DNA of 64,000 bases from Anaeropeptidivorans aminofermentans (lineage in GTDB: Bacteria > Bacillota > Clostridia > Lachnospirales > UBA5962), in contig NZ_OW711693.1 of the NCBI RefSeq assembly GCF_940670685.1, positions 1 through 64,000 on the forward strand, in the 5' to 3' direction. The notes beneath the pieces were generated by a model. It saw nothing but the letters and a program-made list of their open reading frames with translations, had not been told where the DNA came from and made no database searches. Of the stretch, positions 7,073 to 53,046 are shown piece after piece. Position numbers and translations under genes: made by a program. Within the stretch, counting starts at the first letter, position 1, and the number at the start of each line of letters is the position of its first letter.

Positions 7073-7311
7073 TATAGTAAATTTCATATAAAGAAGCAGC
7101 AAAAGCCTGTTTCCATCAGGCTCAAAAACACGGATTTCCTTTGGAAACATAATGAAATTGCCTTTATACCATAATAGGCCATAAGGCTTTTAATATATAA
7201 ATCAAATAAAGGCAGTTTCACAAAGGCGATTTGCTTTATGTCTTTTAAAGCGCATTTTTGAACCTGTGAGAATATACGGCTTTGCTGCTGTTTAACTTTA
7301 AATTTACTATA
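7073..7311 (-). repeat. Family A element, long form carrying module E
   Basis: It runs from TATAGTAAATTTCATAT to AACTTTAAATTTACTATA. About 100 extra bases lie near the hairpin apex. They contain an inverted pair GAAATTGCCTTTAT...ATAAAGGCAGTTTCAC (module E). The same module is found at about 30808-30880. The element fills most of the remB-gyrB gap and ends 44 bases before gyrB. Confidence 0.85.
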
Positions 7312-12226: not shown

Positions 12227-12468
12227 TATAGTAACCTTTTTATAAAGAAGTAACAAGAACCGATTTACTAGGGATTCATCGTTACCAAACAAAAAACAAG
12301 TTTGATAACCATAAGAAAACGCTCACTTAAAAAAGATTTGCAGGCTTGCGCCGGCATTCTTTTCTAAGTTCGCATAGTATAAAAACACGGATTTCCTTCC
12401 AAAGCGGTACATTTTTGAACCCTCGCGAATATACGGTTTTGTTACTGTTTAACTTTAAATTTACTGTA
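12227..12468 (-). repeat. Family A element, long form carrying module F
   Basis: It runs from TATAGTAACCTTTTTATAAAG to AACTTTAAATTTACTGTA. One arm is interrupted by about 110 bases that contain TCATCGTTACCAAAC...GTTTGATAACCATAAG. This insert is module F, also seen inside the A copies at 30.88-31.07 kb and 36.28-36.40 kb and alone at 52.94 kb. Confidence 0.85.
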
Positions 12469-26679: not shown

Positions 26680-27324
26680 TTACTCCTTTACAGCCATATT
26701 TTTAATGTTTTCAATGGCTGCATTAAAAGCAGGAATCCTTAAAATAATCAAGGTTATGATTATTTCAGGGATTATGTAGCTTAAATTATATCCCGCGGAA
26801 TATAAAACTACAGGCATGTCTCCGGCGTATTCGGCAAAAAAGATGATGCCTGAAAGAGTGGAGAAAAGGCATCTTGCAAGGCAGCCGAGGATATAGCCCT
26901 TATAAAGGCCGTATTTGGAGTTAATAAATAATCCGCTTAATCCCAAGGCACCGAAGGCAAAAATATAGTCCATTAAAAGCTGAACAGGGTGAATGACATA
27001 AGGCTCTATAATAAGCTGAAGCATACCATAGGTAGCCGCTGCGATAAGCCCCGGCCATAAGCCGAACCAATAGCCTATAATAGAAACAAAAAGCATACTG
27101 CATGCCGTTACAGTGCCGCCCTGGGGCATATCAAAAAGCTTAATATTTGATAAAACCATGGCAAGAGCGATGGAAATAGCCGAATATGTAAGGGCCTTTA
27201 CGGAAAGCCTGCTTTTTCTTTTAAGGAAAAGAGCAAAGGCGACAATAAGAAGAACCACAACCCCAACACTAAAAGCCATGCCGGCAGCAGATTCAAAAAA
27301 TGTGGTAATAGATAAAAAAAGCAT
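26680..27324 (-). CDS. thiT: Energy-coupled thiamine transporter ThiT
   Basis: ThiT is the substrate-binding S component of an ECF importer that takes up thiamine. The 214-residue protein has six hydrophobic helices. The conserved stretch is GLWPGLIAAATYGMLQLIIEPYVIHPVQLLMDYIFAFGALG. This matches the COG3859/ThiT family. The ECF ATPases and T component are not in the window. An AGGAGG site precedes the ATG. A TPP riboswitch directly upstream confirms thiamine control. Confidence 0.93.
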   Translation of the reverse strand: MLFLSITTFFESAAGMAFSVGVVVLLIVAFALFLKRKSRLSVKALTYSAISIALAMVLSNIKLFDMPQGGTVTACSMLFVSIIGYWFGLWPGLIAAATYGMLQLIIEPYVIHPVQLLMDYIFAFGALGLSGLFINSKYGLYKGYILGCLARCLFSTLSGIIFFAEYAGDMPVVLYSAGYNLSYIIPEIIITLIILRIPAFNAAIENIKNMAVKE

Positions 27325-27345: not shown

Positions 27346-27453
27346 ACCGCATAGGAAGTAAAGGGAATTGTACGCTTTCCTTCGCTGGCATTATCCAGAG
27401 CAGGTACAAAGGGTAAAATCTCAGTTTAGCAAAACTAAACACCCCTAGCGGTA
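27346..27453 (-). promoter_or_regulatory. TPP riboswitch (THI element)
   Basis: On the minus strand the conserved thi-box blocks appear in order: TAGGGGTGTTTAG, then CTGAGATTTTACCC, then TGTACCTGCTCTGGATAATG and CCAGCGAAGGAAA. P1 is formed by ACCGCTAGG and CCTATGCGGT. It ends eight bases before the thiT ribosome site with no separate terminator visible, so control is probably at translation, with thiT repressed when thiamine pyrophosphate is bound. Confidence 0.95.
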
Positions 27454-27672
27454 ATATGAGATTATCATAGTATAAAAAAGCCATGGTGTCAATAGAAAAA
27501 GGTATATTTTGTATTGCATAGATGAAAAAATATCTTGTTTTGCAGTACAATGTCTTTATGTATTAAAAGGTCTCTGCGCTATTTGTAAAGGCTCATTCAA
27601 TCCGGCCGAGGATTGGATAATAATCTGAAGAAACTTAATATTATATCTTATGAAATAAAAGTGAAAATTTAT

Positions 27673-28217: not shown

Positions 28218-28907
28218 ATGGATAAGGATTCGGGCTATTCAAACAAAAATATTAGGCGTAAGCGCACAATGAGGTATTTTATAGAAGCAGCATCAGATAT
28301 TCTTAACAATGAGGGCTATGAAAAGCTTACTACGAGAAATGTAGCGGGGAAAGCCGGCTACAACAGCGCCACCATTTATAATTATTTCGGGAATTTCGAA
28401 AGACTGATTGCCTTTGCCGCAATCAAGGGCCTTAAAGATTATGCCGTAGACCTTCAGGCCCAGATAGACGAAAATATGTCCCATATAGAAAAGTTCATTA
28501 AAATATGGGCATGTTATTTTAAGCACTCACAGAAAAGCCCTGTGATATTTTCTATTTTATTTACGCAATACGGGAACAACCCACTTGCTTTCCTTCAGGA
28601 ATATTATGAAATATTCCCCGAAGAGCGCCAGGAGCTTCCAAAAGATGTGAATGATATTTTCTTTGAAAAAGACTTTGACATCAGAAACAAGCTTCTGCTT
28701 CATAAATGCGCAGAAGAAGGGCTTATTTCCGAAGAAGGCATAGATGATATTGTTATTATGAGCCAGTTTATATTTGAAGGGGTATTGAATAATTCTAAAA
28801 AGAACCCTGAATTATATAATTTAGACCTTTTTATAAAATACCTGAAGCATATTTTTATGTCTTTTAATCCCCAGCTTAAGGGCGTACTGGACTCTATTAA
28901 CGTCTAA
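28218..28907 (+). CDS. TetR/AcrR-family transcriptional regulator
   Basis: The 229-residue protein has an N-terminal TetR helix-turn-helix (about 12-60). The recognition segment is LTTRNVAGKAGYNSATIYNYFGNFERLI. A ligand-binding helical half follows. The start is the ATG at 28218 after AAGGAG; the in-frame ATG at 28200 lies before that site. It converges with the permease at 28897 and overlaps it by 11 bases. The target is unknown; no obvious dyad sits upstream. Confidence 0.88.
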   Translation: MDKDSGYSNKNIRRKRTMRYFIEAASDILNNEGYEKLTTRNVAGKAGYNSATIYNYFGNFERLIAFAAIKGLKDYAVDLQAQIDENMSHIEKFIKIWACYFKHSQKSPVIFSILFTQYGNNPLAFLQEYYEIFPEERQELPKDVNDIFFEKDFDIRNKLLLHKCAEEGLISEEGIDDIVIMSQFIFEGVLNNSKKNPELYNLDLFIKYLKHIFMSFNPQLKGVLDSINV

Positions 28908-29976
28908 AGAACTTTGGATTTCTTACGACCGGTGTTGTTGCTATGGTTTTTATGATAACGGCGATAAAGGGACCGATGAATATGCCGAATACGCCGAAGA
29001 CCCGAAGACCCACATAAATTGACATGAGGGTAATCAGGGGGTGTATTCCGATTTGGGTGCCGAGAACTTTAGGCTCCAAGGCCTGCCTTGTGAATAATAC
29101 GCAAAGATAAGTGATGCCAAGGCCTATAGCCATGGAATAATCCCCTGTAATAAGAGAAAAGCCAATCCACGGCCAATAGAAAAAGCCGCTTCCGAATATG
29201 GGAAGAGCATCTACAAAAGCAATTAAAATACTTAAGAAAAGGGCATATTCGACCTTTAAGATGAAAAGGCCTGTCATACAGATTACAGCTATTATGCTCA
29301 TCATAATAAGCTGGGCCTTGATATACCCCAGGACGGCGTCAATGATGCCGTCCTTCATTAATTTAAAATAACCTTTTAAGGATTCGGGAATAATACCTTT
29401 AATTGATTTAAGGATAAGCTCCCTGTCTTTAATGAAGAAGAAGCAGGATAAAAGGCTTAAGAAGAATCCGAAAATAAAATTAGGGATCTTTGAAACAATT
29501 GCCGTAGAGCCGGTTTTAAGGCCCGAACCTAAAGTAGACGTTAAAGAGGAAACCAGATTATCGGCGATATCGGAAATATAATTTTCAAATCCTTCGGGAA
29601 CCAAGGTATATAAATCGCTGAACCTTTCATTAAATTCACCTATGGTTTTATCGACGTATTTAATCGTATCAGGAAGGGATTCAAAAAACAGCCTGCCTTC
29701 ATGGATAATCCTTGAAAAAAGAAGATTTGATAAAAGGCCGATAACGCAAACTAAAATAATGATGGAGATAAGGGCCGAAAAGCCTCTGCCCAAATGGAGA
29801 TACTTTGCAATAGCTTTTGAGAGAGGAAACAGCAAAAGAGAAAGCAGAAGCCCGATTACAAAGGGCGCTACATAGCTGAAAATAGTATTAAAAAATAAAT
29901 ATAAAGCGGCAATGAATAGGATTATGAATAATATTTTATCTATTTTGCCTTTATGCATCATGTAAAATTCTCTCAT
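28897..29976 (-). CDS. ytvI: AI-2E-family permease, YtvI-like sporulation membrane protein
   Basis: The 359-residue protein has about eight hydrophobic helices of the PF01594 AI-2E transporter family. The conserved blocks are DALPIFGSGFFYWPW and RQALEPKVLGTQIGIHPLITLM. These fit the YtvI sporulation subgroup best, but the exact substrate and role are unknown. The start ATG at 29976 is eight bases after GGGAG; an ATG two codons upstream is too close. It overlaps the convergent TetR gene by 11 bases. Confidence 0.75.
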   Translation of the reverse strand: MREFYMMHKGKIDKILFIILFIAALYLFFNTIFSYVAPFVIGLLLSLLLFPLSKAIAKYLHLGRGFSALISIIILVCVIGLLSNLLFSRIIHEGRLFFESLPDTIKYVDKTIGEFNERFSDLYTLVPEGFENYISDIADNLVSSLTSTLGSGLKTGSTAIVSKIPNFIFGFFLSLLSCFFFIKDRELILKSIKGIIPESLKGYFKLMKDGIIDAVLGYIKAQLIMMSIIAVICMTGLFILKVEYALFLSILIAFVDALPIFGSGFFYWPWIGFSLITGDYSMAIGLGITYLCVLFTRQALEPKVLGTQIGIHPLITLMSIYVGLRVFGVFGIFIGPFIAVIIKTIATTPVVRNPKFFRR

Positions 29977-29982
29977 AGCCAT

Positions 29983-30500
29983 TTCTCCCTAAACAAATTT
30001 ATATCTGCATATTCATATATTTTACTTGTTGAAGTTGATTCATAAATTAAAATATGGTATCTCGGATTCACGCTATAAAATGATTAGCGGGTAAAAATGT
30101 AAAAGCATATAGGTTAAATTCAAAGGAAACAGTAAGATTTTTGCCCTTGTAAAGGGCGGTAGACTGCTTCATGGATTTGCCATACGTATTTATATTGCTT
30201 TAATTATAATAAGCAGTTTAAAAGCTATATTTTTATTTCGGCAATCAGAACTAAGGAGTAAACCAGTTTTTATTGATTTTTAAATACGGCTGAACTTAAT
30301 GATGCTGTAAATTTCTTTCACCATAGGGGAAGATAAGCTAAGGGCCTGTATGACCTGTGAGAGCAAACCTATGAAAGCTTTTACTCTGCTGCCCAAATAT
30401 TTTTCTATGGCGTGGGGGTATTTTTATATAGCAAAACAATTTCATTACAGTAAGAAAAACCGTATTTTTTAAGCGGCTTAATATAAGCGCTTCTATATAG
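29983..30500. other. Intergenic region with a worn C half
   Basis: No gene is supported. A worn left half of a C element is at about 30436-30500 (TTTCATTACAGTAAGAAAAACCGTATTTTTTAAGCGGC). The rest is AT-rich, unlike the dense repeats that follow. Confidence 0.4.
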
Positions 30501-30630
30501 TATAGTAAATTTCAAATTAAACAGTAATAAAAATCGTATATTTTGAATGGCTTAAATATAGGGATTTTATATGTTTAAGCCGTTTATGAAAAACAGATTT
30601 TTATTACATCCTTCAGTGAAATTTACTATA
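30501..30630 (+). repeat. Family C palindromic element, reference copy
   Basis: The 130-base copy has perfect 13-base inverted ends TATAGTAAATTTC / GAAATTTACTATA. The arms pair through CAAATTAAACAGTAATAAA, and the centre GGCTTAAATATAGGG is mirrored by TATGTTTAAGCC. It is the cleanest C copy and is used as the type here. Confidence 0.92.
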
Positions 30631-31075
30631 AATTTAAAGTTAAACAGCAGCCAAGCCGAATACCGCTTAAATTTATATGAAATAGCAGCATTGTCAATTT
30701 GCTTTTCTATTATTTTATACTCCTAAAACCAAATGCTGATAAAGGTATAAAAGCAAATTGACTATACCCAGGCTTAAAGTGTTTTAGAAGAAATAGAATA
30801 AATGGCCTTTTATGAAACTGCCGTTATTTGATTTTATATATTGGAAGTCCTATAATATTGGGGTATAAAGGTAATTTCACTGTGCTTCCAAAGAGAATCC
30901 TTGTTTTTATACAAGGCGAACATGGAAAAGGATACGAGCGTAAGCCTGTAAATCTTTTTCATGTGAGGATTTTCTTATGGTTATCAAACTTATTTTTTTG
31001 TTTGATAACGATGAATCCGTAGTGAATCGATTTTTATTACTACCTTAAAACTATTTTACTTTACAATAAATGATA
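30627..31075 (+). repeat. Composite A element interrupted by B, with modules E and F
   Basis: A left arm (AAATTTAAAGTTAAACAGC...AAGCCGAATAC) starts right at the C end. It is cut by the B element at 30674-30766 and resumes at CAGGCTTAAAGTG. Module E follows (GAAACTGCC...GGTAATTTCAC) at about 30808-30880. The apex arm TTCCAAAGAGAATCC comes next, then module F (GCGAACATGG to TTTGATAACGATGAAT), and the worn right end near 31075. It is at least four elements in one stretch. Confidence 0.75.
30674..30766 (-). repeat. Family B element inserted in an A element
   Basis: TATATGAAATAGCAGCATTG, the inverted tail, then TCAATTTGCTTTTC... and AAAAGCAAATTGACTATA. It splits the A copy between AAGCCGAATAC and CAGGCTTAAA, so B is the younger insertion. 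Confidence 0.82.
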
Positions 31076-31130: not shown

Positions 31131-31652
31131 CTATAAGTTTATCCAGTATATTTGAATAATGCCGTATTCTTCGTCGGGACCTTCATAGGTAAGCAGTCCG
31201 CCGTTTTTCATAATCACCTTGGCAGAAGCCATATTTGTTTTATTGCAGGAAATCATTACCTTATCTAAGCCAATTTCCCGTGCCTTTTCGAGTATTAATT
31301 GGAGCTGTTTATTCCCGTAGCCCTTTTTTCTCTCAGAAGGCCGTATGCCGTAGCCGATATGTCCGCCATGCTTTTCAAGGTCAGCATCAAGCTCATGGCG
31401 AAGCTGAATGGTTCCTATAATCTTTCCGTCGGATTTTCTTACGGTAAAATAAGTTGAGGCGGCTACACCGGAAGGGGTTCCCCCTTTATACCTTGCGAGA
31501 ATGATATTAAGCCACTCATCATAGCTTTCATAGCGTAAGAGACCGCTTGTGCCGTTAATATGGTCTTCTCCGTTTTCCAGATACTCTTTTTTAAGCTCTG
31601 TGGCCGCTTTTTCAAACTCTTTTGCAGGTTCTTTTAAAACAAGCTCGTCCAT
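31131..31652 (-). CDS. GNAT acetyltransferase
   Basis: The 173-residue protein is a GNAT. It opens with LKEPAKEFEKAATELKKEY and has the cofactor loop RPSERKKGYGNKQLQLILEKA, followed by ISCNKTNMASAKVIMKNGG. The family acetylates amines of small molecules or proteins; this substrate is not known. The ribosome site AAGGAGGCAATC before the ATG is strong. It stands alone with no operon partner. Confidence 0.87.
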   Translation of the reverse strand: MDELVLKEPAKEFEKAATELKKEYLENGEDHINGTSGLLRYESYDEWLNIILARYKGGTPSGVAASTYFTVRKSDGKIIGTIQLRHELDADLEKHGGHIGYGIRPSERKKGYGNKQLQLILEKAREIGLDKVMISCNKTNMASAKVIMKNGGLLTYEGPDEEYGIIQIYWINL

Positions 31653-36193: not shown

Positions 36194-36434
36194 TATAGTA
36201 AATTTAAAGATAAACAGCAGCAAAGCCGTATATTCACACAGACTAAAAAATGTACCGCTTTTGAAGGAAATTCGTGTTTTTATACGAAGGGGACTTGAAA
36301 AAGAGCATAGACATAAGTCTATACCCCTTTTTTGAGTGAAGGATTTTTTATCGTTATCATACTTGTTTTTATTTGGTAAGGATAGACCTTCGGGGAATAG
36401 GATTTTGTTACTTCTTCATAATAAATTTACTATA
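36194..36434 (+). repeat. Family A element, long form carrying module F
   Basis: The 241-base copy has perfect TATAGTAAATTT / AAATTTACTATA ends. One arm carries an extra segment GAAGGGGACTTGAAAAAGAGC...TATCGTTATCATACTTG...TTGGTAAGGAT, a diverged module F. The left arm, apex and right end match ordinary A copies. Confidence 0.88.
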
Positions 36435-38378: not shown

Positions 38379-38552
38379 TTAATTATATGATTTTGTAAAT
38401 TGCTTTTATATTCATACATTTCCCTACGTGAAATGTATTCATAATAAAACCCAAACTTTGTTTGGTTAATTATATGATTTCGTAATTTTCTTTTATATTC
38501 ATACATTTCCCTACGTGAAATGTATTCATAATAAAACCCAAACTTTGTTTGG
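38379..38552 (+). repeat. Tandem 87-base repeat, two near-identical units
   Basis: Units 38379-38465 and 38466-38552 differ at only a few bases near their 5' ends. Each has the hairpin ATACATTT...AAATGTAT and ends AATAAAACCCAAACTTTGTTTGG. A third, worn unit seems to lie just upstream (CATACATTTTCTAAAAGAAATGTAC at about 38327-38350). They lie between the convergent ends of no genes; both flanking genes are on the minus strand. Confidence 0.85.
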
Positions 38553-39813: not shown

Positions 39814-39951
39814 TATAGTAAATTTAAAGTTAATCAGTATAAAGCCCATATATTCACGCAGGCTTAAAAATGTACCGTTTCCGAAGGAAATTTGTGTTTT
39901 TGAGCCTGCTGGGAATAGGCTTCTGCTACTTCTTCATAATAAATTTTCTAT
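39814..39951 (+). repeat. Family A palindromic element
   Basis: It is 138 bases from TATAGTAAATTTAAAGTTA to AATAAATTTTCTAT. The arms CAGGCTTAAAAATG / TTTTTGAGCCTG pair, with apex TTTCCGAAGGAAA. It is a well-preserved copy. Confidence 0.88.
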
Positions 39952-41279: not shown

Positions 41280-41418
41280 TATGGTAAATTTATTATGAAG
41301 AAGTAACAAAAGCCTATTCCCGGCAGGCTCAAAAAAACGGATTTCCTTCGGAAACGGTATATTTTTAAGCCTGCGTGAATATACGGCTTTGTTATTCGTT
41401 AACTTTAAATTTACTATA
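41280..41418 (-). repeat. Family A palindromic element
   Basis: It is 139 bases from TATGGTAAATTTATTATG to AACTTTAAATTTACTATA. The arms CAGGCTCAAAAAAACGG / TTTTTAAGCCTG pair, with apex TTTCCTTCGGAAA. It lies 36 bases after pdaA. Confidence 0.88.
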
Positions 41419-52798: not shown

Positions 52799-52937
52799 AA
52801 TTGGTAAGATGATGATGTTGGTTTAAGTTATAGAGCGGTGAAGGCATTGTTTCCTCCATCATTTTAAAACCATAAGAAGATCGTGCTGTTTTTTAAGTAA
52901 GAGTTATCTTTCAATAAGTGAATAAGAATTTATACCT

Positions 52938-53037
52938 AAGTGAACTTGAAAAATCATATAAGTATAAGCTTGTAAGTAGCTTTTCAAGTGAGCATTCCTT
53001 ATAGCTAACAAACAAGTTTTCAAGTTTATTAACTATA
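52938..53037 (+). repeat. Free-standing module F
   Basis: It runs from AAGTGAACTTGAAAAATC through TTGTAAGTAGC, TTTTCAAGTGAGCATTCC and AACAAACAAG to TTTCAAGTTTATTAACTATA. It matches the insert found in long A copies at 12.3, 30.9 and 36.3 kb. It shows that F is a separate element. Confidence 0.75.
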
Positions 53038-53046
53038 GATTAGCCT

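Follow-up and report, generated by a model that had tools for sequence, protein, structure and literature searches.

The composite described here occupies positions 30427-31063 (about 640 bases) of the window, by which we mean the whole stretch of 64,000 nucleotides that was analysed, part of a 3.757-Mb genome in a single contig. It is intergenic and non-coding, is built from small palindromic repeats, and lies between an AI-2E-type transporter gene (28897-29982, minus strand) and a GNAT acetyltransferase gene (31131-31652, minus strand). The initial annotation had named pieces A, B, C, E and F, and all of them were found in the order proposed and near the positions proposed; the end of B (30766) was placed correctly, but its start had been set at 30674, 8 nt too far right. 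We also found an outer layer, C2, that had been missed, and the nest is deeper than first described. Its parts are the following:

30427-30495 (+): left half of C2, the outermost and older C-type element (profile positions 1-67), interrupted by A at the C2 loop
30496-31063 (+): A, whole span including its inserts, with boundaries taken from other copies
30496-30502 (+): first 7 bases (TATAGTA) of the A left terminal repeat, which is the uninterrupted TATAGTAAATTTAAAG in many other A copies
30501-30502 and 30629-30630 (+): left and right copies of the TA target duplication of C, as read in the sequence
30503-30628 (+): C element, inside the left terminal repeat of A
30631-30665 (+): A left arm, part 1, from the A-core alignment
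30666-30766 (+): B element, in the A left arm
30767-30781 (+): A left arm, part 2, from the A-core alignment
30782-30884 (+): E module, a diverged B-type element, adjoining the A apex, in place of some 5 nt (TACCG) that the empty A site has
30885-30908 (+): A apex, from the A-core alignment
30909-31012 (+): F module, at TTTTT^GAATCC, without target duplication (fold z -4.6)
about 30920-30964 and about 30977-31012 (+): F hairpins 1 and 2, from the two-hairpin covariation in 34 copies
31013-31063 (+): hybrid right end, A right arm and then C2 right arm from the shared TTTTTRTTACT onward

Deletion of C, B, E and F restores an ordinary A core, as had been predicted, and not a sequence unlike A. 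The 132-nt remnant scored 76.9 bits against an A-core profile built from 51 copies in 464 kb (one contiguous 400-kb stretch plus the window), while the best of 500 dinucleotide shuffles reached 6.0, and it is 77% identical to the A consensus. Elsewhere in the genome the analysis covered targeted stretches. Moreover, it aligned at 72-73% identity with the simple A copies at 39814 and 41280. The copies of the window used for comparison were these:

39814-39951 (+): simple A core, from repeat search and copy alignment
41280-41418 (-): simple A core, a long hairpin
7073-7311 (-): A core with E, from profile search and copy alignment
12227-12468 (-): A core with F, from profile search and copy alignment
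36194-36434 (+): A core with F, from profile search and copy alignment
52923-53038 (+): free-standing F, from F model matches

E at 7.15 kb and F at 52.94 kb are discrete units, as proposed. Very short A copies of about 80 bp, consisting of the two end arms only, were also seen in the genome (347345-347426, 402370-402451 and 168872-168950). A had no match in 30 relatives, and its exact end pattern had none in a genome-contig collection from which its own genome may be left out. One relative, G004, has 24 end-like 12-mers, which in the loci inspected do not pair up as MITE ends.

Both C and B are inserts in A, and the stacking is real. The left end of A, TATAGTAAATTTAAAG, here reads TATAG, TA, TAGTAAATTTC ... 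GAAATTTACTA, TA and AATTTAAAG, where the part from TAGTAAATTTC to GAAATTTACTA is C. The A terminal repeat is therefore split between TATAG and AATTTAAAG, only the 2-bp TA being exactly duplicated, and C lies within this repeat and not next to A as initially annotated. C at 30503-30628 is 98.5% identical to the C consensus, and a search of the own genome (query 1-130) gave about 20 other near-identical full copies at 92-96%, whereas the A, B, E and F part (query 129-575) gave collinear matches of about 80% at several dispersed places. By these identities, C is the youngest layer of the composite. On the outer side, the 68 nt to the left of A (30428-30495) correspond to positions 1-67 of the C2 profile with 40.7 bits (best of 300 shuffles, 3.4), and the last 35 nt or so of the composite agree with the C2 right arm at 29 of 34 positions vs 25 of 34 for the A right arm. 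The right remnant alone (profile 91-125) is weak, at about 10 bits, and the two remnants joined score 57.2 bits over profile positions 1-125. In the simplest history, A inserted in the C2 loop and a short deletion then took place between similar TTTTTRTTACT stretches; since the right arm is an A/C2 hybrid, this deletion would have removed the right end of A itself. Relative ages can be read in the stack, as had been suggested: C is the most recent layer, C2 was there before A inserted, and A is older than the B it holds. As C splits one end of A and C2 sequence has taken over the other, the composite is probably immobile now.

We conclude that the composite is a genuine nest of TA-duplicating palindromic MITEs. 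The elements are short (about 80-440 nt), non-coding and multi-copy, they carry terminal inverted repeats (TATAGTAAATTT...AAATTTACTATA) in long hairpins, and nested insertions with known empty sites reveal a TA target duplication, a feature of MITEs and of the IS630/Tc1-mariner group alike. The 12-nt end TATAGTAAATTT has 513 exact copies genome-wide vs 3 for a reversed-pattern control. Together, the A, B, C, C2, E and F families cover 7.3% of the 464 kb, 23% of its non-coding and 0.3% of its coding DNA, and their coverage in a reversed-sequence control is 0. Two side observations can be added here. Among the matches listed, the exact search with TATAGTAAATTT on the plus strand gave none over about 150 kb (genome 940404-1090660), perhaps a region that was acquired recently or is densely coding, and in the window an 87-bp unit is tandemly duplicated at 38379-38552, with 97% identity.

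TA duplication together with palindromic ends points to an enzyme of the Tc1/mariner/IS630 type. In the genome, neither PF13358 (IS630-type) nor PF01609 (DDE_Tnp_1) had a match, and the matches of NF033545 were weak, all below cutoff. The two best of these were dismissed as partners, lying in genes that are IS3-like by sequence and lacking TATAG ends. No transposase ORF flanked by element ends was found in the 464 kb, and no autonomous IS630 element sharing these ends was found in the own genome. The mobilising enzyme may have been lost, or may be too divergent for the profiles used.

We also looked at how B, E and F are distributed among A copies. Profile searches over 546 kb found copies with the core only (the commonest form), with E, with F, with E and F, with B and F, and with B, E and F, each module always at one fixed site. 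The composite's order of B, E and F recurs in other A copies, whose flanks are unrelated. That many A copies share these modules and their sites indicates an earlier acquisition, followed by amplification together with A. B, E and F would then not have been inserted separately into the A copy at 30.5 kb, but inherited with it. In agreement with this, the 15 B-in-A copies (a set excluding the copy at 132624, where B lies outside A) cluster on the B tree, with 0 of 500 shuffles as low, and on this tree, which has about 100 columns and is weakly resolved, a single clade of B-in-A copies is not rejected (p-AU 0.26).

Not one complete A copy was found with B and without F, so B probably entered an A that already held F. 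Copies with B and F that lack E belong to two separate B-tree lineages, and their E site is unoccupied. As E replaced about 5 bases and simple excision cannot restore such a site, exchange between copies is likely, and the range of module combinations (none, E, F, E with F, B with F, and all three) points to the same process. At the B and E junctions the TA duplication is not clean and a few bases are replaced, and at the F junction there is no duplication, which may reflect another route of entry or decay of the junctions.

E and F had been described as distinct units. Both are discrete, but E is not distinct from B. A profile of free-standing B copies aligns with most E copies over almost their whole length, and E inside A reaches up to 30 bits (shuffle maximum 4.1); the composite's own E, among the most decayed copies, gives 7.0 bits. 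From these alignments, E is best described as a diverged B-type element, homologous to B. Another apex module (CACGAACTTAGA...GGGAGC) takes the place of F in three copies (genome 105195-105455, minus strand; 362700-363100, plus strand; 428155-428430, plus strand), and is possibly a distant F variant.

F is the most novel part of the composite. It has 64 matches in the 464 kb. Standard pairs fill 92.9% of the pair cells in an alignment of 34 copies vs 34-50% in slid-partner controls. In the same 34 copies, 12 of 22 pairs show two-sided changes, with both hairpins covarying; the covariance model (R2) includes both, its structure having been given by hand. Conserved blocks (AGYGAACTTG ... AAGTGRGYR...CCC..ATATAG) flank the hairpins. 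Both the A right arm and the C/C2 left arm hold F at TTTT^GAAT, without duplication, and free-standing copies have flanks that are T-rich but variable. Among 56 relatives, the covariance model found F in one, the MAG Clostridiales bacterium TD116_bin47 (G030), which belongs to another family of the same order as the host; the score was 60 bits, and two or three of the 14 matches listed are convincing. The F-like two-hairpin repeats of this MAG (loci L103, 1153-1266; L105, 1501-1614; L107, 586-676) are intergenic and free-standing and lack TATAG ends. We regard as less likely than not, though worth stating, the idea that F is an unrecognised structured element that enters different MITE families at TTTT^GAAT, by single-strand mobilisation or in connection with an RNA function, and spreads as their passenger.

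A related proposal, which concerns F only and is compatible with the MITE nest, is that F is a non-autonomous IS200/IS605-like element moved by a Y1 transposase. IS200/IS605-derived PATEs and REPINs carry hairpins in pairs, lack both terminal repeats and a target duplication, and have a T-rich target. F may resemble them in its paired subterminal hairpins, its T-rich target and its duplication-free entry at the same TTTT^GAAT in A and C/C2. In addition, the genome holds about 26 matches to Y1 (IS200/IS605) transposases, which fall into several near-identical groups at T-rich sites (including genome 974778, 1748935, 1749586, 1986701 and 1987459, L076-L099), and some of these IS copies are directly adjacent to one another. 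On the other hand, a by-eye comparison with five resident IS200 groups showed no end sequence common with F, which may set it apart from PATEs and leaves its mobilisation putative, and the variability of the free-standing flanks also argues against such an origin. We regard this proposal as rather doubtful.

It was also considered that F, and perhaps the whole of A, is a structured RNA gene or an element acting at the mRNA level, with B, E and F as optional domains and transposition as incidental. The covariation of both F hairpins and the F match in a clostridial MAG of another family speak for it, as does the folding of A and C, far better than that of shuffles (z -5.8 for the A copy at 41280, and z -9.2 for the C described here, a single long hairpin). 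However, departures from pairing in the A-core stems are nearly balanced between G-U and A-C (177 vs 132), which does not support RNA-level selection on the A arms. In the F stems G-U departures exceed A-C ones (60 vs 22), largely through three pairs fixed at the subfamily level; RNA-level selection on F is possible from these counts. Balanced A stems and subfamily-fixed F pairs together suggest that most copies decay as unconstrained DNA. Moreover, no credible Rfam match was obtained for the composite or for the F copies of the MAG, and an RNA identity of this kind appears unlikely to us. The sole Rfam match in the window is a TPP riboswitch (27360-27456, minus strand), upstream of the ThiT/YuaJ thiamine transporter gene at 26680-27324.

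The initial annotation had attributed the stacking to repeated insertion at preferred targets, that is, B, E and F entering the A copy at 30.5 kb one after another. The modules do interrupt A, and some nested events elsewhere carry exact TA duplications. Three kinds of event have exact empty sites and a TA duplication: C is inserted in E in locus L024; a C2-type element occupies one site in E that is common to three copies (176085, 246256 and L019); and, where E and F meet in L021 and L024, an additional MITE has entered. Four nested levels can be followed in L024 1020-1830 (genome about 428.9-429.7 kb), where A holds E, E holds C and C holds F. Against successive private insertion stand the clustering of the B-in-A copies and the fact that B, E and F take identical positions in numerous A copies dispersed over the genome. 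Furthermore, by a fixed criterion that overlooks cases at the edge, the composite's own C among them, 4 of 25 C copies lie across another element vs 67 of 400 random non-coding TA sites. Preferred insertion into other elements is thus not supported, and nesting is to be expected when TA insertion takes place in non-coding DNA of which elements already make up about a quarter. We consider private nesting very improbable. Local duplication and recombination of palindromic DNA without any transposition is more improbable still. The hybrid right end and the mosaic copies do show recombination, but the TA duplications stand at sites with an exact empty form, and the hundreds of copies are dispersed and differ in their flanks.

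In conclusion, a nested MITE stack, in which B, E and F were acquired elsewhere, amplified with A and reshuffled by recombination, is in our judgment highly probable. The history would begin with a C2-type MITE inserting in the chromosome, as its remnants suggest. A, already with F, E and B, would then have inserted at a TA in the C2 loop, and a deletion between matching stretches of the A and C2 right arms would account for the hybrid arm. Finally, a young C inserted at a TA inside the A left terminal repeat, as its exact TA duplication shows. B, E and F would have been gained by ancestors of A at other places, each at its one fixed site, then amplified with A and, as the module combinations suggest, reshuffled between copies. 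Because of the TA duplication and the palindromic TATAG ends, the mover was most likely a cut-and-paste DDE transposase of the Tc1/mariner/IS630 type that acted in trans and can no longer be recognised in the genome.

MITEs of this kind are already described, the nearest cases being RUP, ERIC and Correia, and what is unusual is the modular, recombining anatomy. RUP of Streptococcus pneumoniae is a non-coding element of about 107 bp with about 100 copies, TA termini and TA insertion, thought to be moved in trans by IS630-Spn1 (PMC2229807). The present elements are likewise non-coding and multi-copy, with TA termini and TA insertion, but differ in having no recognisable IS630 partner, optional modules within element types and 513 exact ends. 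ERIC and Correia-NEMIS, also palindromic MITEs, lie in intergenic DNA, have TA termini and reach high copy numbers (up to 711 copies of ERIC in Photorhabdus), and Correia has forms with and without a 50-bp internal sequence (PMC2229807, PMC10969869). Going by these descriptions, A is set apart by its at least three optional modules, by B being an amplified family of its own and by the presence of F in two host families.

These results mean that TA-duplicating MITEs make up nearly one quarter of the sampled non-coding DNA, without a recognisable matching transposase. If F is an element in its own right, structurally conserved and inserting in a way of its own, it would be a MITE passenger undescribed in the literature searched. 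The modular, recombining structure also documents with unusual clarity how very small bacterial transposons take shape, through insertion, amplification as a composite and internal exchange of modules.
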